From Deltaproteobacteria bacterium (GTDB lineage: Bacteria; Myxococcota_A; UBA9042; DTJE01): 35,339 bases of DNA. Positions 25,802 to 35,339 of the stretch are shown here, piece after piece. Position 1 is the stretch's first letter. Each line of letters starts with the position of its first letter. The stretch is from contig JAKPTZ010000106.1 of the NCBI GenBank assembly GCA_029555025.1, positions 1 through 35,339 of the forward strand, in the 5' to 3' direction. Position numbers and translations under genes: made by a program. The notes below the pieces were generated by a model. The model saw nothing but the letters and a program-made list of their open reading frames with translations. It searched no databases and was not told the DNA's origin.

Positions 25802-26019
25802 GCTGTACGTCTCCAGATGTCTTTCCGGGCAAAGGGTTGGAGCAATGCTAGCGGATTGTATATCGTCAAATCAATAAGTATGGCGAAAATGATGTATAGG
25901 CGTGCCGCGCCGTGTAACTTCTGCTGTTGTGCGTCAGGTGCCGCTGTACTAGGATTTCCACATCGTTTCGCGGTCCCGGCCCGGGTTCCGGTTGTCCGTC
26001 ATTTTCCCAGGAGGTTCCA

Positions 26020-28770
26020 ATGCGTCGAATAATTGCCGTGGCGGTTCTGACCAGCCTCGTCGCGCTGTGCGCGTGCACGCCAGACGAAGTCAGCCCGCCG
26101 ACGAATCTGTCCCGGCTCCGAGTGGAAAACAAGAATTTCCGCGATGAATCGGGGCGTTACATGATGATCAACGGTGTCAACGTCAGCGGCACGACGAAAG
26201 TCCCGGTCAATATCTCGCCGGTTTCGTACGTCGGCCGTCCGTTCCCGATCGACCAGGTTGATGACTGGTTCGCCAAGCTGCGGCGCGACGGCTTCAACGC
26301 CATGCGCCTGCTGGTCATCTGGGAAGCGGTCTGCCATCAGGCGCCTGGCGTTTATGACAACGAATACCTGGACTACCTGGAACAGGTGATTTCCAAGGCG
26401 AACGATCACGGCATCTATGTCCTGATCAATTTCCACGAAAACCTTTTCAGCCGCCATCTATATTCGGTCTTCAACGATCATCCCACGATTGGCGAGCCGG
26501 GAAGCTGGCAGGCTATGATCGGCAGCCTGTTCCCGGCCACGGATCCTGAAACCGGCGAACTTTATTACGATTCCAAGGTCGTTGGCGACGGCGCGCCCCG
26601 CTGGGCGGTTGAAGCCTGTTTGCCTGAAAAGGACCTGGACGCCCCGACGTACGGCATGCTGCGCATCCTTGGCGACGTAACGCTGGACAGCGGCAACCTG
26701 GGTAAGCTGATTTCCGCCTTCACGACGCTTCTGGCGGGCGGCGATGGCGGAATGACCCCGGAAATCATTGAATTGATTGACATGTTGTCATCAAGTCTGG
26801 CCGCGATGACGGATGCCGGCCTGCTGCCGTTCGACATGACAACCACGAATGACATGATGCCGTTCACGCTGTGGGCAATGAATTCGTTTCTGTCGGTCGA
26901 TGTCGAAAAGTGCTACGCCGCCTTCTTCGCTGGCAACGAGGTCTTCCCGGACCGCAAGATCGACGGCGTCCCCATCATGGACTATCTGCAGCAGGGCCAC
27001 ATCGACGCGTGGCTGCAGGTTGTCGAGCGCGCGAAGAAGTACCCGAATATCCTGGGCTATGACCTGATGAACGAGCCGACCGGCATCTTCATCATCCTGT
27101 CGGTCGTTTCCGCCTATGTTTCGGCCGGTTTCGACAACGTGGCCGCGTATGCCGCGCTGACCGCGCTTATTGACAAGGACACCGTTGACGCCATTTACAA
27201 CATCATCGACGCGACCGGGCTGCTGCCGTCGATTCCGCTGGAATTGACCGAAGAGAATGTGGCCGCCAACGTCACCGACCCCGTGATCGACACAATCCAC
27301 GACGCGGTCGAGGCGCGGCTTACGGTACTGCTGGACGCGATCCCCGCCGATTCCACCGCCACCACTTTTGTTTCGACCGATCCGTTCAAGACCGAGATGG
27401 CCACCGCGATTGCCGATGCCAAGGCCGAGGTGCGCGCCAGGGTCGCCCAGAAGGTGGCCGGCATGGAAGAAGGCATGCGCGAGTCGATCGTTTCATCCGC
27501 CGAGGATCAGGCCGGAAAGGTCATCCAGTCCGCAGTCAACGGCGCGGCGAAGGCGATCAAGGCACTGCCGGCCGACGTCCTGGCCGATCCGGAATCGCAG
27601 GCGGCCCTGATGGTGAAGATCGAATACAAGACGCGCGCCTTTGACGACGTGCCCCCGATTATCGTCGAGTCCGTCGCCGAGGTTCGCAAGCAGCAGTTGA
27701 TGGCCTACTGGGACACGATCAAGGCCCAGTGGGGAATGGCCGACATGGATCTGTTCGCCACGATTGACCTGAACATGAACCTGGAACGCAAGTACATGAT
27801 GCGTTACTGGAACCGCATCGGCGCGGCGGTCCAGCAGGCCGACCCGAACGCGATCCTGTTCATCGGCGACCCGCTTGCGATTAACAGCCTGTTTGGCGGC
27901 GAGGCGATGTCCCAGATGAACAATTCGCCTTACAAACCCGAAAACATCAAGAATTTCGTGCATTCGTACCACTGGTATCCGGGCAGTATCTATCCGCTTG
28001 GTCTGTTCCAGGTGCCGCCGCAGAAGTTTTCGGCCATCGAGTGGCGCACAAAGGACTTCCTGACGCCGCTGTCGGGCAAGTACACCCGCACGGCCAACAC
28101 GTACGGCAACGTTCCGGTGGTGTTCACGGAATTCGGGACGTACTTCAATTTCAACTGGAACCTGAAGGATCGCGAATCGATCCTGGCTCACGTTGCCGAG
28201 CATGGCTATGACGTGTCCGCGGCAATTTTGAATAACGAATACGAGACGTTTGAAAAACTGATGTCGCACAGGATGGTATGGTGCATGTCGGGCGATAACG
28301 ACTACCAGCTTGGCGACCAGTGGAACCACGAGGACTTCAGCGTCTATGGTCCGGACGGAGAGCCCCGCGCCCACGAGGCATGGATGAGGCCGACCGTCCA
28401 CATGTCGGCCGGTGAACCGATCGAGATGCGCTTCTTCTCGCCGCTGCACGTCTTTGACCCGGACAAGGGCGAAAGCGCCGACCAGCAGCTTGGTGAATTC
28501 CATTACGCCTGCGAGGGCAAGGAATCGGACCTTCCGACCGAGATTTACGTGCCCGAATTCCAGTACCCGGACGGCTTCTATGTCTGGCTTTCGGACGGGT
28601 GGGCGACGTTCGACCCCGATTTGCAGACGCTTTACCACTATCCGACAAATGACGAGCCGGGCGTGACGCATGAAGTCACGATCAGGCGCCCGGCCGAAGG
28701 TCGGGAAAACAAGGGATGGGCGTATTTCTTCAACTTCGATGGCCAGAAGGTCGTCGGGGACAGGCAATAG
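26020..28770 (+). CDS. Glycoside hydrolase family 5-like lipoprotein with a large helical insertion
   Basis: The 916-aa protein starts at ATG 26020, preceded by AGGAGG with 5 bases between, and has a lipoprotein-type signal ending LCAC. The GH5 (clan A) TIM barrel is seen from GFNAMRLLVIWEAV, through INFHENLFSR (His139), to YDLMNEP with the acid/base Glu352 and VVFTEFG with the nucleophile Glu704. The start resembles endoglycoceramidase-type members. The gap of about 350 residues between the two catalytic Glu is far more than usual. It contains a helical, Ala/Glu/Lys-rich stretch (about 360-600) with ADAKAEVRARVAQKVAG, and the barrel resumes near RYWNRIGAAVQQADPNAILF. A C-terminal beta domain follows. 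The likely role is hydrolysis of a glycan or glycolipid outside the cytoplasm. The barrel protein gene starts 12 bp downstream. Confidence 0.88.
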   Translation: MRRIIAVAVLTSLVALCACTPDEVSPPTNLSRLRVENKNFRDESGRYMMINGVNVSGTTKVPVNISPVSYVGRPFPIDQVDDWFAKLRRDGFNAMRLLVIWEAVCHQAPGVYDNEYLDYLEQVISKANDHGIYVLINFHENLFSRHLYSVFNDHPTIGEPGSWQAMIGSLFPATDPETGELYYDSKVVGDGAPRWAVEACLPEKDLDAPTYGMLRILGDVTLDSGNLGKLISAFTTLLAGGDGGMTPEIIELIDMLSSSLAAMTDAGLLPFDMTTTNDMMPFTLWAMNSFLSVDVEKCYAAFFAGNEVFPDRKIDGVPIMDYLQQGHIDAWLQVVERAKKYPNILGYDLMNEPTGIFIILSVVSAYVSAGFDNVAAYAALTALIDKDTVDAIYNIIDATGLLPSIPLELTEENVAANVTDPVIDTIHDAVEARLTVLLDAIPADSTATTFVSTDPFKTEMATAIADAKAEVRARVAQKVAGMEEGMRESIVSSAEDQAGKVIQSAVNGAAKAIKALPADVLADPESQAALMVKIEYKTRAFDDVPPIIVESVAEVRKQQLMAYWDTIKAQWGMADMDLFATIDLNMNLERKYMMRYWNRIGAAVQQADPNAILFIGDPLAINSLFGGEAMSQMNNSPYKPENIKNFVHSYHWYPGSIYPLGLFQVPPQKFSAIEWRTKDFLTPLSGKYTRTANTYGNVPVVFTEFGTYFNFNWNLKDRESILAHVAEHGYDVSAAILNNEYETFEKLMSHRMVWCMSGDNDYQLGDQWNHEDFSVYGPDGEPRAHEAWMRPTVHMSAGEPIEMRFFSPLHVFDPDKGESADQQLGEFHYACEGKESDLPTEIYVPEFQYPDGFYVWLSDGWATFDPDLQTLYHYPTNDEPGVTHEVTIRRPAEGRENKGWAYFFNFDGQKVVGDRQ

Positions 28771-28782
28771 GAGGGCACGCAG

Positions 28783-30381
28783 ATGAAACGCATCATTTTC
28801 CCGATTGTCGTTTTCTCCGTGGCCGTCCTTGCCGGGCACGCCGCAATTTCCCAGGAAGCGGGCCACGAGGTCGTTCAGGATGCGGGCCAGGAACCCGTCC
28901 GGGAGCCAGTCCAGGATGCCGCCGTGGAATCCGCGCCCGAAGCCGCCCCGAGCCAGGACGAGTCCATCGAATCCGACGGCTCTGGCGAATCGGCCGGCGG
29001 TGAAGCCAATTCCGATGCCGAAAGCGCCGCCGGTGGTGACTCGGACGGTGCCGCTCATAAGTCCGACGCCGACAAGGCGTTCGGTCGCGATCCCCGTCCG
29101 AAGATAGACGCCTTTTATTCCAAGCACGTCGATATCGGATTCCAGCTTGCGACGATGTTCCAGTACTCAAACGACAGCGATTTCGATCGCAGCAAGCCCC
29201 TTGATGACCCGTACGACCGTTCGACCGGACTGTTCGGAACCTTCCTGAAGCCGCAGTTGACGGTCAAGCTGAACAAGGTCTTCCGCTTTTACTGGGAACT
29301 TGAGCTTGGCCTGGATCTGTGGAGTCGTAATTCGCCGGATGCGACGCTTGGCGCTGACGGCAAGGCAAAGGAACCGGAATCGTTCGGCATCCGTCAGCGG
29401 GAGCTTTACGGCGAGGTTCTTTACAGGCAACTGGCGGTACGGCTTGGATACCAGCATATCGAGGACGTATCCGGCCTGTTCCTGAACCACTGGTTTGGCG
29501 CGGCCGCCTTCCGTTATGGCCCGGAACGCTCGAGTCATTTGCGTCTGTTTGGCGGCCAGATGCCGGATCAGACGTATGAGGGCTGGGATCTGACCGAAAA
29601 CAGCCTGAAGAACGACGTGTATATCGCCGGTATCGACGGGCAGTGGGTTTTCAACCGCTGGGCGAAGATTCAGGCCGGCGCCTATTACCTTGGTGATCTT
29701 TCCACGGTTGGACAGTACCGCCATGTCGGGGTGCTCTCGGCGGGATTCGCCCTTGAAAAGAAGTGCTGGGATGCCAGGCTGGCAGTCATCGGCCAGGTCG
29801 GAAGCCTTGAAAATTCGGCCTCTGACGGTGGCGATGCGCTGCATGGGGCGTGGGGCGTGGTCGCTTCCGGCGGCGTGAACCTGAAGCATTTTGAACTGAA
29901 GGCTTCGGGAACAGTCCTTTCCGGGGATGACGACTCAAACGGCAACGACCAGCTTGCCTTCATGTGGTCCGGCAAGCGCCCGGGCATGTCCATCCTGCTT
30001 TCGGAAAACGAATCCCGTGACCTGGGGAACAACTTCGACGAAAGAATTGCCAGCCGTGATGGTGGATTCAATACGACCGTGGCCGGCATGGGAGCCCTTG
30101 ATCTGGGGCTTTATTACAAGCCGGTGGATTACATGAAGCTGGGCTTCGTCACGGCGGCCCTTTTTGTGTTGAATCCATCGAACGCTCTTGGTGGATCATT
30201 CGTCGGCAGCGAGAACGAACTGGTATTTGACGCCGAACTGATGCACGACCTGATTCGCATCCAGGCCATCGCCGGCCTGATCGTCCCCGGCGCCGCCGGC
30301 GCTGCGCTGGTCAACAGCATCGACCTGAAGGCCAGGGACAACATCTACTTCGGCCAGCTCGCGGTCATCCTGAACTTCTGA
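28783..30381 (+). CDS. Outer-membrane beta-barrel (porin-like) protein
   Basis: The 532-aa protein has a signal peptide ending near residue 22. An acidic Ala/Glu/Ser/Asp-rich linker (about 24-95) follows, then alternating amphipathic strands from about 105 to the end (FRFYWELELGLDLW, LAVRLGYQHIEDVSG, MKLGFVTAALFVLNP). The last residue is Phe after AVILN, the usual outer-membrane assembly signal. The pattern recalls alginate-export/porin-type barrels, but the ligand is unknown. GAGG lies 8 bases upstream of the ATG, and the gene starts 12 bp after the GH5-like gene, so both are probably in one operon. It may pass the sugars or lipids released by the hydrolase. Confidence 0.82.
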   Translation: MKRIIFPIVVFSVAVLAGHAAISQEAGHEVVQDAGQEPVREPVQDAAVESAPEAAPSQDESIESDGSGESAGGEANSDAESAAGGDSDGAAHKSDADKAFGRDPRPKIDAFYSKHVDIGFQLATMFQYSNDSDFDRSKPLDDPYDRSTGLFGTFLKPQLTVKLNKVFRFYWELELGLDLWSRNSPDATLGADGKAKEPESFGIRQRELYGEVLYRQLAVRLGYQHIEDVSGLFLNHWFGAAAFRYGPERSSHLRLFGGQMPDQTYEGWDLTENSLKNDVYIAGIDGQWVFNRWAKIQAGAYYLGDLSTVGQYRHVGVLSAGFALEKKCWDARLAVIGQVGSLENSASDGGDALHGAWGVVASGGVNLKHFELKASGTVLSGDDDSNGNDQLAFMWSGKRPGMSILLSENESRDLGNNFDERIASRDGGFNTTVAGMGALDLGLYYKPVDYMKLGFVTAALFVLNPSNALGGSFVGSENELVFDAELMHDLIRIQAIAGLIVPGAAGAALVNSIDLKARDNIYFGQLAVILNF

Positions 30382-30496: not shown

Positions 30497-32653
30497 ATGC
30501 CGAAGAAGGTTCGGGAGTGGACGCTTCTGGAGGAGGTCGGGCGAGGTGGAATGGGTGTGGTCTGGCGGGCCCGTCATATGATTCTGCCGGGCGACTGGGC
30601 CGTGAAGGTCATCCGTCCCGAACTGAGTTCGGATGCGGAAACCCGTGATCGCTTCCTTTCCGAGGTGACCGTCCTTAAGCGGTTGCGTCATCCCAACGTG
30701 GTCGAAGTTGATTCGCCGTTTCAGGAAGGTGGCGAACTGTACCTTCCGATGGAATTCCTTGCCGGACAGTCCCTGGAAAAGGTGCTTGCGGCACGTCCCG
30801 GTTCGTGGGAGCCCGCAGCCGCGGTTGCCATCATAAGGCAGGCAGCGGCCGGCATCGGTTTCGGGCACAGGCAGAAGCCACCGGTTCTTCATCGTGACGT
30901 GAAGCCGGGAAATATTCACATCCTTTCGGATGGCCGGGTGAAGGTTGTCGATTTCGGTCTTGCCAGAACTCTTGGCGAGAAGTCCACCACGTCGCGCGGC
31001 CTTGCGGTTGGCACGCCGGCTTACATGGCGCCGGAGGTGCTTGACGGAAAGCGCGCCACGCCGCAGTCAGACGTTTACGGGCTTGGAATCGTGCTTTACC
31101 GCCTGCTGGCCGGAAGGATGCCGTTCAACATGCCGGACGAGGATTCGGCCTCGGCAATGGCGATTGTGCTTGCCGTATCGCGGGCCCATGCATCGGGCCT
31201 GGTCGATGTCCGTCAGTATGCCCCGGCCGTGTCGTCGGATCTTGCCGGCGTCGTGATGTCTGCCCTGGCCGCCGATCCGTCTGAACGACCCGCGGATGCC
31301 GCCGAGTTTGAAAGTCGCCTGGCCAGGCTCTATCCGCCGTCCGTCCAGTCAAGTCCGTCCGTTCAGTCCCGTCCGGGCATGTCGGTGAAGGCAGCATCAC
31401 CCGCCGCGGTCGATTACGACGCGACGTCGCTTGGCATCCATGTCTCATCGGGATCAAGCCAGGAACAGGGCAGGGCCGCCTGGGCTTTTTCGGCACCTTC
31501 GGAACAGTCCGGTCATTCGTCCAGCGGATGTGTTGAACGGCCGATGGCCGGTGCGGGTTTCGTTCCTGGATGTCCGGGTGTCCCCGATATCCTTGCGGGC
31601 ATTCGGATTGAACTTCCGGCGCTTGATGATTCGCCGGATGTCCGTCGCCGCGGCGGATCGGGCACGCGTGCCGCGGCGGGCATGCCGGGATGGGTACCGT
31701 CGTGGATGCGTGGCGCCCTGTCGGTTGTCATTGGTATGCCAGGTCGGATTTATGACCGACTTCCCCCCGGGATTGCCGGGGTTCTGACCTTGCGCAACCT
31801 GATTATCGTCGGTGTGGCGATGGTGGTTGTCGCGGGTGGAATAGTCGGCTTCACCATGTATCAATCCTGGAAGGAAGCCCGTGACGAAGCCGCGAGGCAG
31901 GCCGCTGTTGTGGTTGCCCCAGAGCCCCCTTCGCCCGACAAGATCGCCGGAATCAACTGGGTCAGGATTGAAGGAGGCGGTTTCTGGATGGGTTCATCCA
32001 CGGGACAATCGGACGAGCAGCCGACGCATTTCGTCACGGTCAAGAGTTTCAGCATGTCCGCGACCGAGGTCACGATCGAACAGTACCAGAAGTGCGTCGA
32101 TGCCGGTGCGTGCAGCCGTCCACATTTCGATGACGGAACTTGCCGCGTCTATATCGACGGGGTCTGGTCTTCCAGGGTGCTTCCCCAGCCGTTCAGGGGT
32201 GCGTCCAACCCGGTTGTGTGCGTTGACTGGGAACAGGCTTCCGCTTTTGCCAGATGGGTTGGCGGCAGGCTTCCAAGTGAAGCCGAATGGGAATTCGCGG
32301 CCAGGGCCGGCGTGACGGCCGACCTTTACGGCAGTCCTGGTGACATCGCCTGGTATCGAGACAATTCATACGGAAGCACCAGTGCGGTCGGACGCAAGCG
32401 ACCGAATGCCAACGGGCTGTACGACATGGTTGGCAACGTCTGGGAGCATTGCGAGGACGTTTACCATAACAGCTATTCCGGCGCGCCGTCCGACGGAAGC
32501 GCGCGCAGGTATCCATCCGGAAAGTTCCGGGTCAACCGCGGCTCAAGCTGGGACGACGGTGCCTCGGTTCTCCGCCTGTCAAACAGGTACAGGCTCGAGT
32601 ACGGCAAGAGCAGTTGTTCACTGGGGATTCGGGTGGTTCGCGACGTGATCTGA
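30497..32653 (+). CDS. Transmembrane Ser/Thr kinase with extracytoplasmic FGE/SUMF1-like domain
   Basis: The 718-aa protein is a Hanks-type kinase: glycine loop GRGGMG (15-20), Lys37 in AVKVI, HRDVKPGN (132-139), DFG (152-154), APE in YMAPEVL. A long Ser/Pro/Gly linker (about 280-430) and one membrane segment (about 436-456, LIIVGVAMVVVAGGIVGF) follow. Residues 485-717 form a formylglycine-generating-enzyme/SUMF1-like domain (GGFWMGSS, EVTIEQYQKCV, GRLPSEAEWEFAARAG, MVGNVWEHCED, VNRGSSWDD). The C-terminal Cys pair that gives FGE its activity is not seen in its usual place, so this domain is probably a binding or sensor part. The start is certain: AGGAGG is 5 bases upstream. The next kinase gene starts 13 bp after the stop. 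Confidence 0.93.
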   Translation: MPKKVREWTLLEEVGRGGMGVVWRARHMILPGDWAVKVIRPELSSDAETRDRFLSEVTVLKRLRHPNVVEVDSPFQEGGELYLPMEFLAGQSLEKVLAARPGSWEPAAAVAIIRQAAAGIGFGHRQKPPVLHRDVKPGNIHILSDGRVKVVDFGLARTLGEKSTTSRGLAVGTPAYMAPEVLDGKRATPQSDVYGLGIVLYRLLAGRMPFNMPDEDSASAMAIVLAVSRAHASGLVDVRQYAPAVSSDLAGVVMSALAADPSERPADAAEFESRLARLYPPSVQSSPSVQSRPGMSVKAASPAAVDYDATSLGIHVSSGSSQEQGRAAWAFSAPSEQSGHSSSGCVERPMAGAGFVPGCPGVPDILAGIRIELPALDDSPDVRRRGGSGTRAAAGMPGWVPSWMRGALSVVIGMPGRIYDRLPPGIAGVLTLRNLIIVGVAMVVVAGGIVGFTMYQSWKEARDEAARQAAVVVAPEPPSPDKIAGINWVRIEGGGFWMGSSTGQSDEQPTHFVTVKSFSMSATEVTIEQYQKCVDAGACSRPHFDDGTCRVYIDGVWSSRVLPQPFRGASNPVVCVDWEQASAFARWVGGRLPSEAEWEFAARAGVTADLYGSPGDIAWYRDNSYGSTSAVGRKRPNANGLYDMVGNVWEHCEDVYHNSYSGAPSDGSARRYPSGKFRVNRGSSWDDGASVLRLSNRYRLEYGKSSCSLGIRVVRDVI

Positions 32654-32666
32654 GAGAGGGAACAAG

Positions 32667-35339
32667 ATGTCGATAAGCGTAAGGGAATGGGTTTTGATCG
32701 ACGAGATTGGCCGGGGCGGCATGGGCATCGTCTGGCGTGCCAGGCATCAGATGCTTCCGGGCGACTGGGCCGTAAAGGTCATTCGTCCCGAATTGAGCCA
32801 GGATTCCGAATCAAGGGCGCGCTTTCTTTCCGAAGTCACCGTGCTGAAGCGCCTTCGACATCCAAACATCATCGAGGTCGAGACGCCGTTCGAGGAAGGC
32901 GGAAACCTGTATCTGCCGATGGAGCTTCTTACCGGGAAGTCGCTGGAAAAGCTGCTTCTGGAAAGGCCGCATCCATGGAATCCCCAGGATGTGGTCAATC
33001 TTGCGCGCCAGGCCGCGGCCGGTCTTGGGTACGCCCATACCCAGGCGGAACCGGTGCTGCACAGGGACGTTAAGCCGGGGAATATCCATGTCCTTGACGG
33101 CGGCCATGTGAAGATCCTGGATTTCGGTCTGGCCAGGACACTTGGCGACAGATCGATGACGGCGGCGGGCAAGGCGGTCGGGACGCCGGCATACATGGCC
33201 CCGGAAGTCCTTGACGGGAAAAGGGCCTCGACACGATCCGACGTGTACGCGCTTGGCGTGGTCATGTATCGAATGCTTACCGGAAGGCTGCCGTATGACC
33301 TTCCTGAAGACGAGTCCTCGCTTGTCGCCCTGGTTCTTTCGATCGTCCGCGCGCATGATCGGGGATTGCCCGATATAAGGGAATTTGCGCCGGCGGTGCC
33401 CCCGCAACTTGCGGCCGTCGTGATGAATACGCTTTCCCGCGACCCGGCATTGCGCCCCGCAGATGGAATGGAACTGTCTGCCAGCCTTTCGCGGCGGGAT
33501 CTTCTTTCCAGCCAGCTCGGGGATGGACAGGCCGGCCTTGATTCGACAAGGCTCGGGATTGAACTTCCAGCCACCGGCCGGGCCGCGCAGGCCCCGGCCA
33601 GCCCGGCGGGTGTGCCGATTACACCGCCTGAAGCCTTTGGAAGGCCGATTGGATCGCACGTCCCGGCGCAGCGTGATGCCGACGTCAGTCTGTTGGGGAT
33701 TCGGGTAACCGCGGGTGATTCCGGCGTCAGATCCGAACCTGACACGGACAGGTTTGCCGAAAAGTCGGATTTCGTTCCGGTGGTTCCCCAGGTCGTCCAC
33801 GCCAAACCGCCACGTGGCCGGAAAATCTGGCCATGGATTGTCCTTGGTGTTGTCGGGATTGCGATCGGCGCGGGGTTCGGTCTGTTCGGGATCGGGTCCG
33901 GCGAATCCGGCCCCATGTCGTCCGGCGGGTTGCTTTCCGGCGGTGAACCTTCTGAAAAGGTTCAGTTTTCAATGCACATTATGTCCCAGTGTCCATTCGG
34001 TGCGCAGGTCCAGAAGGGTATTGCCCCCGTGCTGAAGACCCTCGGAAACGCGGTTGATTTCAAAATGCATTACATCGGTGACGAACCTGAACCGGGAAAT
34101 CTGACATCGATGCACGGCGCCAACGAAGTCATGGGGGACAAACTGCAGTTGTGCGCAATGAAGTATGCCCCGGCCAACTACATGGACGTAGTCGTCTGCA
34201 TGGCCAACGACATGCGCAACATTCCACAGAATTTCGAAAAGTGCGCGACCGAGGCCGGGATTGACCCGGCCCCGATCAAGGCGTGCGCCGAAGGTCAGGA
34301 AGGCACCGACCTGCTGTCAGCTTCCTTCAAGGCATCAAAGGAGGCTGGCGCCCGCGGATCCCCGACGATGTTCTTAAACGGCGAGAAGTACCAGGGTGGC
34401 CGCACCGAGAACGACTTCATGCGTTCGATTTGCAACGCGTTCAAGGCAAAAAAGCCGGCCGTCTGCGCGAACATCCCGGAACCGAAGAAGATCGTCGTCA
34501 CCGTCCTGTCCGACAGGCGCTGTACGAAGTGCTTCCCCGACAGGATCCTTGGCCAGTTGAAGAACATGTTCCCCGGACTTGAACCGAAGACCCTCGATTA
34601 CTCGGATCCGGAAGGCCGGGCGCTGTACGACAGCCTGAAGGATCAGGGCGTGAAGCTGCTGCCCGCATTCCTGTTTGATCCAGTCGTGGCCGAAGACGCC
34701 GGTTTTGACCAAATCAAGCGTTTTATCGTCGATGCCGGTCAGTACAAGCTGCTGCAGGTTGGCGCGAAGTTCGATCCGACCGCCGAAATCTGCGACAACG
34801 GCGTGGACGACAACGGTGACGGAAGGGTTGACTGCAGGGACTCCGGCTGTGATGGTTCTTCCGATTGTCGTTCCGAAATCGCGCGCAGGCTGGATCTGTT
34901 TGTGATGTCCCAGTGCCCGTTCGGCGTGAAGGCGCTCAACGCACTTCCGGAATTGATCCGGGCGTTCAAGAGCGACGGCATTACCGTCAACATCAACTAC
35001 ATCGCCGACGAAATGCCTGACGGTACCTTCAAGGCGCTGCACGGCCAGCCTGAAGTCGATGAAAACATAAGACAATTATGCGCCATCAATTACTACCCCG
35101 GGGACTACAGGTACCTGGACTACATCATATGCCGTAACAGGGACATCAAATCGTCCGACTGGAAGAGTTGCGCGGTCAACGGTATCGACCCGGACGTCAT
35201 CCGGCGTTGCGCCGACGGATCCGAAGGGCGCAGGCTTCTGTCAAAGAATCTGAAGTTTGCCAGACAACTGGAAATCGGCGCCAGTCCGACCTGGCTTGCC
35301 AACAACAAGTTCAAGTTCTCGGGCATCGCCCCGGAACAG
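32667..35339 (+). CDS. Transmembrane Ser/Thr kinase with tandem thioredoxin-fold (GILT/DsbA-like) domains, 3' end outside window
   Basis: The frame is open from ATG 32667 (AGGGA 6 bases upstream) to the right edge: 891 codons with no stop. The kinase domain has GRGGMG (15-20), Lys37, HRDVKPGN (132-139) and DFG (152-154), at the same positions as in the preceding kinase. A linker and one membrane segment (about 388-408) follow. Outside the membrane I see a GILT-like thioredoxin fold with MSQCPFG (Cys442), several spaced cysteines and the cis-Pro motif GSPTMFLNG. A CxxC thioredoxin/glutaredoxin-like domain follows (CTKC, Cys619 and Cys622). Next is a metal-binding CDNGVDDNGDGRVDC motif (from Cys709). 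A second GILT-like domain (MSQCPFG, Cys750; cis-Pro in GASPTW) is cut by the edge. This looks like a redox- or thiol-sensing receptor kinase. Confidence 0.93.
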   Translation, partial: MSISVREWVLIDEIGRGGMGIVWRARHQMLPGDWAVKVIRPELSQDSESRARFLSEVTVLKRLRHPNIIEVETPFEEGGNLYLPMELLTGKSLEKLLLERPHPWNPQDVVNLARQAAAGLGYAHTQAEPVLHRDVKPGNIHVLDGGHVKILDFGLARTLGDRSMTAAGKAVGTPAYMAPEVLDGKRASTRSDVYALGVVMYRMLTGRLPYDLPEDESSLVALVLSIVRAHDRGLPDIREFAPAVPPQLAAVVMNTLSRDPALRPADGMELSASLSRRDLLSSQLGDGQAGLDSTRLGIELPATGRAAQAPASPAGVPITPPEAFGRPIGSHVPAQRDADVSLLGIRVTAGDSGVRSEPDTDRFAEKSDFVPVVPQVVHAKPPRGRKIWPWIVLGVVGIAIGAGFGLFGIGSGESGPMSSGGLLSGGEPSEKVQFSMHIMSQCPFGAQVQKGIAPVLKTLGNAVDFKMHYIGDEPEPGNLTSMHGANEVMGDKLQLCAMKYAPANYMDVVVCMANDMRNIPQNFEKCATEAGIDPAPIKACAEGQEGTDLLSASFKASKEAGARGSPTMFLNGEKYQGGRTENDFMRSICNAFKAKKPAVCANIPEPKKIVVTVLSDRRCTKCFPDRILGQLKNMFPGLEPKTLDYSDPEGRALYDSLKDQGVKLLPAFLFDPVVAEDAGFDQIKRFIVDAGQYKLLQVGAKFDPTAEICDNGVDDNGDGRVDCRDSGCDGSSDCRSEIARRLDLFVMSQCPFGVKALNALPELIRAFKSDGITVNINYIADEMPDGTFKALHGQPEVDENIRQLCAINYYPGDYRYLDYIICRNRDIKSSDWKSCAVNGIDPDVIRRCADGSEGRRLLSKNLKFARQLEIGASPTWLANNKFKFSGIAPEQ

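Follow-up and report, generated by a model that had tools for sequence, protein, structure and literature searches.

The window analysed is a stretch of 35,339 nt that makes up the entire contig C9 of a 3.49 Mb genome in 158 contigs. By its named relatives the genome belongs to Myxococcota. An open reading frame on the plus strand (positions 32667–35339) has 891 codons and continues without a stop up to the end of the window. It encodes a Ser/Thr kinase, a membrane segment and an outer chain of thioredoxin-fold domains. The genes and features are as follows, with residue numbers of the encoded kinase.

25927–28770, plus strand: GH5 cellulase-family lipoprotein-like protein, 77% identical to the homologue in a congeneric genome (G001)
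28783–30381, plus strand: conserved neighbour of 532 aa with a signal peptide-like start and no Pfam match; a homologue is at the same place in the congener
30497–32653, plus strand: sister kinase with an FGE-sulfatase outer domain and a transmembrane (TM) segment, 13 bases upstream of the next gene, of the same subfamily and 65% identical
32667–35339, plus strand: receptor kinase gene, codons 1–891 of 927; the remaining 36 codons and the stop are on contig C85 (L202)
32694–33458, plus strand: cytoplasmic Ser/Thr kinase domain, residues 10–264 (Pfam Pkinase, E = 1.6e-49), with glycine loop, Lys37, HRD, DFG and APE intact
33540–33566, plus strand: juxtamembrane motif DSTRLGIEL, residues 292–300, between kinase and TM
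33825–33893, plus strand: sole membrane segment, residues 387–409, by hydropathy, with RGRK on the inner side
33960–34478, plus strand: GILT domain 1, residues 432–604, by Pfam GILT, PDB profile, AlphaFold/Foldseek and conservation
33990–34001, plus strand: monothiol CPFG of GILT domain 1, residues 442–445, with the cis-proline SPT at 565–567
34479–34778, plus strand: small thioredoxin-like domain, residues 605–704, by AlphaFold (pLDDT 92, pTM 0.85) and Foldseek
34521–34532, plus strand: CTKC of the middle domain, residues 619–622, with the cis-proline LPAF at 665–668
34776–34868, plus strand: acidic double-disulfide repeat EICDNGVDDNGDGRVDCRDSGCDGSSDC, residues 704–734 (NF033662), with four conserved cysteines
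34890–35339, plus strand: GILT domain 2, from residue 742, ending on contig C85
34914–34925, plus strand: CPFG of GILT domain 2, residues 750–753, with SPT at 873–875
35199–35339, plus strand: contig-end overlap of 141 bases, identical to the end of C85 that holds the gene remainder

Over its final 141 bases the window is identical to one end of contig C85 (9,813 bases), read as the reverse complement. An overlap of this length is expected where an assembly made with k = 141 is interrupted at a graph edge. Through C85 the frame reads ...APEQ|IKKQFCDHNSNLSGCRKTLSGEAIGGGTGAPTCGSN-stop, which adds 36 residues and gives a protein of 927 aa. This tail holds the last three family-conserved cysteines (897, 906 and 924). 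The join has support beyond the overlap itself, since the joined C9 and C85 have the gene order of G001 on both flanks: homologues of the GH5 protein, the 532-aa protein and the C85 genes (266, 252 and 439 aa) are found in the same order on one contig, G001:C207. An earlier, sequence-only reading had noted the long frame without a stop and would have been refuted by a protein-breaking frameshift beyond the right edge. The continuation on C85 has no frameshift, and truncation at the edge is likewise rejected because the frame ends normally there. The gene thus encodes a complete single-pass receptor Ser/Thr kinase of 927 aa. The next gene on C85 (L202:5814–9561) begins a few bases past its stop. 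The lipoprotein-like product, about 1.2 thousand residues long, contains a VWA domain and has an OmpA domain at its C terminus; a TPR/PEGA protein follows. The VWA/OmpA gene, the TPR/PEGA gene and the two kinase genes probably form one operon.

Every catalytic motif of the kinase is found (GRGGMG at 15, WAVKV with Lys37, HRDVKPGN at 132, DFG at 152 and APE at 178), in agreement with the earlier claims of a complete kinase and of one membrane segment, the latter being the single hydrophobic stretch in the protein. The complete catalytic domain, with a single TM and then an outer domain, is that of a Hanks-type bacterial receptor Ser/Thr kinase, and by its motifs the cytoplasmic kinase is competent-looking. 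It is not a PASTA kinase (PknB/Stk1, NF033483), where the score is 224.5 of 450 bits and the match is confined to the kinase. The PADLOC PD-T4-6 anti-phage kinase models match at 2.9e-71. As these matches lie almost wholly in the kinase domain and the FGE sister kinase scores just as high, and as the neighbours are envelope proteins and not defence genes, the protein is not assigned to the anti-phage kinases.

The juxtamembrane motif has a weaker second copy, DVSLLGIRV, at residues 339–347. The consensus D-x-T-x-[LI]-x-[IF]-x-[LIV] is present in nine of ten members of the kinase subfamily and absent from all 18 of the genome's other kinases that were tested; the further carriers are the gene at 30497 in the window and those on G000:C64, G000:C144 (G000 being the present genome) and G001:C207, C77 and C89 (8 kinases). 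It is a possible autophosphorylation or docking site. Phosphorylated threonines occur in the juxtamembrane linker of StkP (PMC12077195), and the linker threonine of D-S-T-R-L-G-I may be a phosphorylation target.

The kinase subfamily is small and mostly at genus level. Among 284 genomes of the phylum, only 3 have members at E <= 1e-90. The nearest kinases are the gene directly upstream (65% identical), those on G000:C64 and G000:C144, and six in the congener. Seven of the ten readable subfamily members have an FGE-sulfatase outer domain; the outer parts of the other three are a cysteine-containing coil-like segment, the GILT chain, and a short end past the TM in a member that sits near a contig end. 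Compared with the STPK-FGE-sulfatase receptor kinases (30497–32653; G000:C64; G001:C207, C77 and C89), the present kinase domain is 53–65% identical and has the same juxtamembrane motif and one TM, but the FGE-sulfatase outside is replaced by the GILT chain. In the congener, kinases of the same subfamily adjoin the conserved flanking genes and none has a GILT part. With FGE outer domains in most of the subfamily, the GILT-bearing kinase looks like a sensor-domain swap. Two adjacent kinases on G001:C207 (L237:3976–5913 and L237:6024–7949) are 98.9% identical in their kinase domains and 60% in their FGE outer domains, which implies that the input domain evolves or swaps independently; this pair represents outer-domain diversification or exchange in progress.

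The outer part was described from the sequence alone as GILT-like, CxxC, metal-motif and second GILT-like domains in one frame. The order found is GILT, thioredoxin-like, acidic repeat, GILT. Pfam GILT matches two stretches, with a whole-protein E of 7.2e-21 and 75 bits against a cut-off of 22.4, and Pfam DSBA matches the same frame at 1e-6. A sequence profile alone also matches the GILT structure 6nwx (E = 2.2e-8, profile positions 6–177). An AlphaFold model of the outer part from 27 sequences has a mean pLDDT of 91.7 and a pTM of 0.61, so that the domains are predicted with confidence but their mutual arrangement is not. Thioredoxin folds are seen in this model, as anticipated. The top Foldseek match is mouse GILT (6nwx, E = 2.6e-9, TM 0.77 by target length), followed by DsbA proteins and then by a vacuolar sorting receptor. 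For the middle domain nearly all matches are thioredoxins (best E = 2.4e-3, probability 0.94–1.00, TM about 0.45); the modest E and TM values indicate a reduced, thioredoxin-like fold. In the proposed metal-motif domain a four-cysteine acidic loop is present, but its best match is the acidic double-disulfide repeat (NCBIfam NF033662, E = 6e-5, at 22.7 of 41 bits below the cut-off), and the MopE copper motif (PF11617) is rejected at 8.6 of 27 bits. Residues 521–586 weakly match NF041057, the Rcas_1661 family thioredoxin-like (seleno)lipoprotein, at an E of 5e-5 that falls short of the cut-off; the family may thus be remotely related to selenoproteins. Pfam, motifs, AlphaFold, Foldseek and the frame continuation all bear out a receptor-type kinase that carries several thioredoxin-fold domains in a row.

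The protein has 21 cysteines, all in the outer part; the kinase, linker and TM have none. Each is a family-conserved position among 87 relatives, which take in bins of Woesearchaeota, Nanoarchaeota, Altiarchaeales and Kuenenbacteria. The GILT-like cysteines do lie in two copies of MSQCPFG, as had been pointed out (Cys442 and Cys750). What had been missed is that both sites are CPFG, with one cysteine each, and that the active-site CxxC of GILT is therefore absent. The first active-site cysteine of GILT domains 1 and 2 is kept in 86/87 and 87/87 relatives, and the cis-proline in 87/87 and 86/87, while the +3 position is Gly in 81 and 82 of the 87 and Cys in 2 and 1. The two CxxC cysteines of the middle domain are kept in 85/87 and 87/87 relatives, and those of the acidic repeat in 85–87 of 87. 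The GILT signature is CQHGX2ECX2NX4C (PMC8631631); domain 2 has LHGQPEVDENIRQLC in its place, in which HG-x2-E, N and the last Cys are kept and two Cys are lost. A count of 6+6+4+2+3, where 6+6 are framework cysteines, 4 belong to the acidic repeat and 2 to CTKC, would leave Cys442, Cys750 and Cys924 without an obvious partner, the pairing being one of bookkeeping. In rare relatives (L262, L172) one GILT domain does have CxxC (CPHC, CPYC), and these could tell whether the one-cysteine state is derived.

The family-wide lack of a second cysteine at the GILT sites leaves only the middle domain for a reversible CxxC redox switch. One invariant cysteine per GILT site makes thiol capture or binding likelier than disulfide turnover, and for these domains sensing via one reactive thiol, or plain binding, probably fits better than redox switching. 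A nucleophile and a substrate groove without a resolving cysteine is the arrangement that is created on purpose, by protein engineering, when a thioredoxin-fold enzyme is to be trapped on its substrate. Mouse GILT with CxxS begins reduction and cannot complete it, and the mosquito protein mosGILT (CxxS) shows no reductase activity and does not need its cysteine for its effect, which a Cys-to-Ser mutant kept (PMC6060088).

The genome's own double-GILT lipoprotein is the source of the outer part, a captured copy whose junction lies just past the lipobox. It is 82% identical to the lipoprotein on C103 of the same genome, with dN 0.125 and dS 0.643. The dN/dS of about 0.2 shows that the outer part is under purifying selection. 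The other 26 proteins have 88 positions with conservation of at least 95%, and the kinase outer part keeps 86 of these. In comparisons with more than 12 relatives, residue 430 is where similarity to the lipoproteins sets in, just past the lipoprotein lipobox. In a tree the kinase outer part pairs with C103 (support 99/98). When the outer part is split in two, the N half still pairs with C103 and the C half is not placed and has a long branch, which would reflect gene conversion or a GILT domain 2 that evolves faster. The disagreement means that the age of the fusion within the genus is not separable from gene conversion.

By its GILT-thioredoxin-acidic repeat-GILT chain and 21 conserved cysteines, the outer part belongs to the double-GILT family and resembles its lipoproteins (e.g., G000:C103 and G001:C1) throughout, with all cysteines in place. 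The family proteins are exported by a signal peptide with lipobox, which a plain TM anchor replaces in some archaea and candidate-phylum bacteria, and are without a kinase, whereas the present protein has a kinase, a TM and a Ser/Gly linker instead. This tandem-GILT family (L041–L068, L093–L172, L244–L262) is unnamed and has one-cysteine CPxG sites and 21 conserved cysteines. It ranges over Myxococcota, other Deltaproteobacteria-type bins, candidate-phylum bacteria and DPANN archaea. Lipoproteins predominate in it, and some members from archaea and Kuenenbacteria have a TM anchor instead. A row of TolB, a BrkB-family protein and the double-GILT lipoprotein is conserved in about 12 loci (including L067:11592–15532 on G000:C103, with the lipoprotein paralogue), which suggests a link to the envelope. 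No redox partner was found among the gene neighbours of the double-GILT lipoproteins.

The sequence-only reading knew of no characterised kinase with such an outer part. This holds for the exact chain: the combination of two GILT domains, a thioredoxin-like domain and an acidic repeat was not found on a kinase in the literature or collections searched. It does not hold for the general design, for which Mycobacterium tuberculosis PknE (Rv1743) is a precedent, with a kinase at 1–289, a TM at 337–359 and a DsbA-like domain at 377–566 with CPPC (PMC3792642); a DSBA-type kinase of this species was already listed in 2005 (PMC1262709). Both proteins have the order kinase, single TM, thioredoxin-fold outer domain, and each is one of a set of receptor kinases. 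PknE is set apart by its published description, with 566 aa, one DsbA-like domain and CPPC, as against 927 aa, two CPFG GILT domains, a CTKC thioredoxin-like domain and the acidic double-disulfide repeat. The catalytic CxxC of the PknE type is missing from the GILT domains, and CTKC is found only in the small middle domain. GILT/IFI30 (6nwx) shares the fold, domain length, HG-x2-E and last signature cysteine, and differs in its CxxC where the present domains have CPFG, in the first two signature cysteines, missing here, and in the two tandem copies seen here. Like the present domains, mosGILT is a GILT domain that has lost the second active-site cysteine, but it is a secreted single-domain animal protein with CxxS that acts on a parasite and has no kinase (PMC6060088). 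The joining of a Ser/Thr kinase to an outer thioredoxin fold is thus known already, and the present protein differs in its GILT subtype, its tandem arrangement and its sites with one cysteine.

No second kinase-GILT fusion was found in the relatives, in the best 80 of 141 contig loci, in 52 genomes of the class or in 379 genomes of the phylum; the long frames inspected in this search were read-through upstream sequence and not kinases. A DSBA-family search of 284 genomes returned mostly free DsbA proteins and hence has no bearing on kinases. The kinase-GILT fusion is a single case in one genome within the collections searched.

The protein may be a receptor kinase whose captured double-GILT outer part is a receptor for periplasmic molecules that bear thiols or disulfides, a reading to which we give about an even chance. 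In each GILT domain the invariant CPFG cysteine, beside the invariant cis-proline, would attack or bind the putative ligand. The missing second cysteine means that the domain could not finish a reduction and would tend to hold its partner. The CTKC pair or the conserved tail cysteine, Cys924, might then release or reset the captured partner. Binding might bring kinases together or re-orient them, which would lead to autophosphorylation, perhaps at the conserved linker threonine. The ligand of the lipoprotein would also be the signal for the kinase, sensed most likely by a single reactive thiol in each GILT domain. Several observations stand against this thiol-receptor reading: the lipoprotein genes adjoin TolB and BrkB-family genes and not redox genes, mosGILT shows that a one-cysteine GILT can act without that cysteine (PMC6060088), and the fusion is known from one genome only. 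The earlier suggestion that the kinase senses periplasmic thiol/disulfide state or metal is weakened in its thiol part by the absence of the GILT CxxC in essentially the whole family.

It is possible, if on the unlikely side, that the GILT chain only binds a ligand without any thiol chemistry and that its cysteines are structural or relics. The ligand would be a peptide, a misfolded protein, a wall fragment or the cell's own double-GILT lipoprotein, the parent of the outer part, which is still in the same genome. The family-wide loss of CxxC is in keeping with this, as are the match to the lumenal part of the plant vacuolar sorting receptor, a cargo receptor, and the cysteine-independent effect tested with mosGILT, a CxxS protein without reductase activity (PMC6060088). 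A relic cysteine is, however, unexpected in 86–87 of 87 bacterial and archaeal proteins together with the cis-proline.

GILT is a reductase. The middle domain keeps its conserved CxxC and its cis-proline, so the outer part could also be a membrane-anchored disulfide reductase or isomerase that the kinase merely regulates or anchors. This is improbable, as the second cysteine is missing at both GILT active sites, and a complete kinase from a receptor subfamily with varied outer domains argues for an input rather than catalysis. A calcium or copper sensor, in which the acidic repeat would bind metal and set the arrangement of the GILT domains, is still less probable. The DxDxDG-like acidic loop with its four conserved cysteines is suggestive of one, but the MopE copper and EF-hand models score far below cut-off, and every one of the lipoproteins, as well as many another protein of the class, has a repeat of the same type; so common a repeat looks like a structural link. 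An artefact, either a chimeric contig end that fused a kinase to a lipoprotein gene or a decaying pseudogene, is hardly credible even for a gene that reaches a contig end and a fusion seen in one genome: a single frame crosses the Ser/Gly linker with no remnant of a signal peptide or lipobox, dN/dS points to selection, the 18% difference from the paralogue marks a separate sequence, and both flanks, including the contig joined by the 141-base overlap, are ordered as in the congener, so that synteny and divergence reject a chimera.

To our knowledge, few receptor Ser/Thr kinases of bacteria have a known input. Here the outer part is a whole chain from an unnamed bacterial and archaeal family, and its binding should read out as phosphorylation in the fusion. 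The one conserved cysteine per GILT site provides a sharp two-residue test (Cys442 and Cys750). The locus also reveals a small kinase family that switches outer domains inside one genus. It is conceivable, though doubtful, that the double-GILT chain is in general a widespread periplasmic thiol-capture receptor, in which the two monothiol GILT sites would trap a ligand and the CxxC domain, as a relay, would release it together with a flexible cysteine at the C terminus. If this is true, the kinase fusion would be the one case with a visible output, in which periplasmic thiol state is converted to Ser/Thr phosphorylation.
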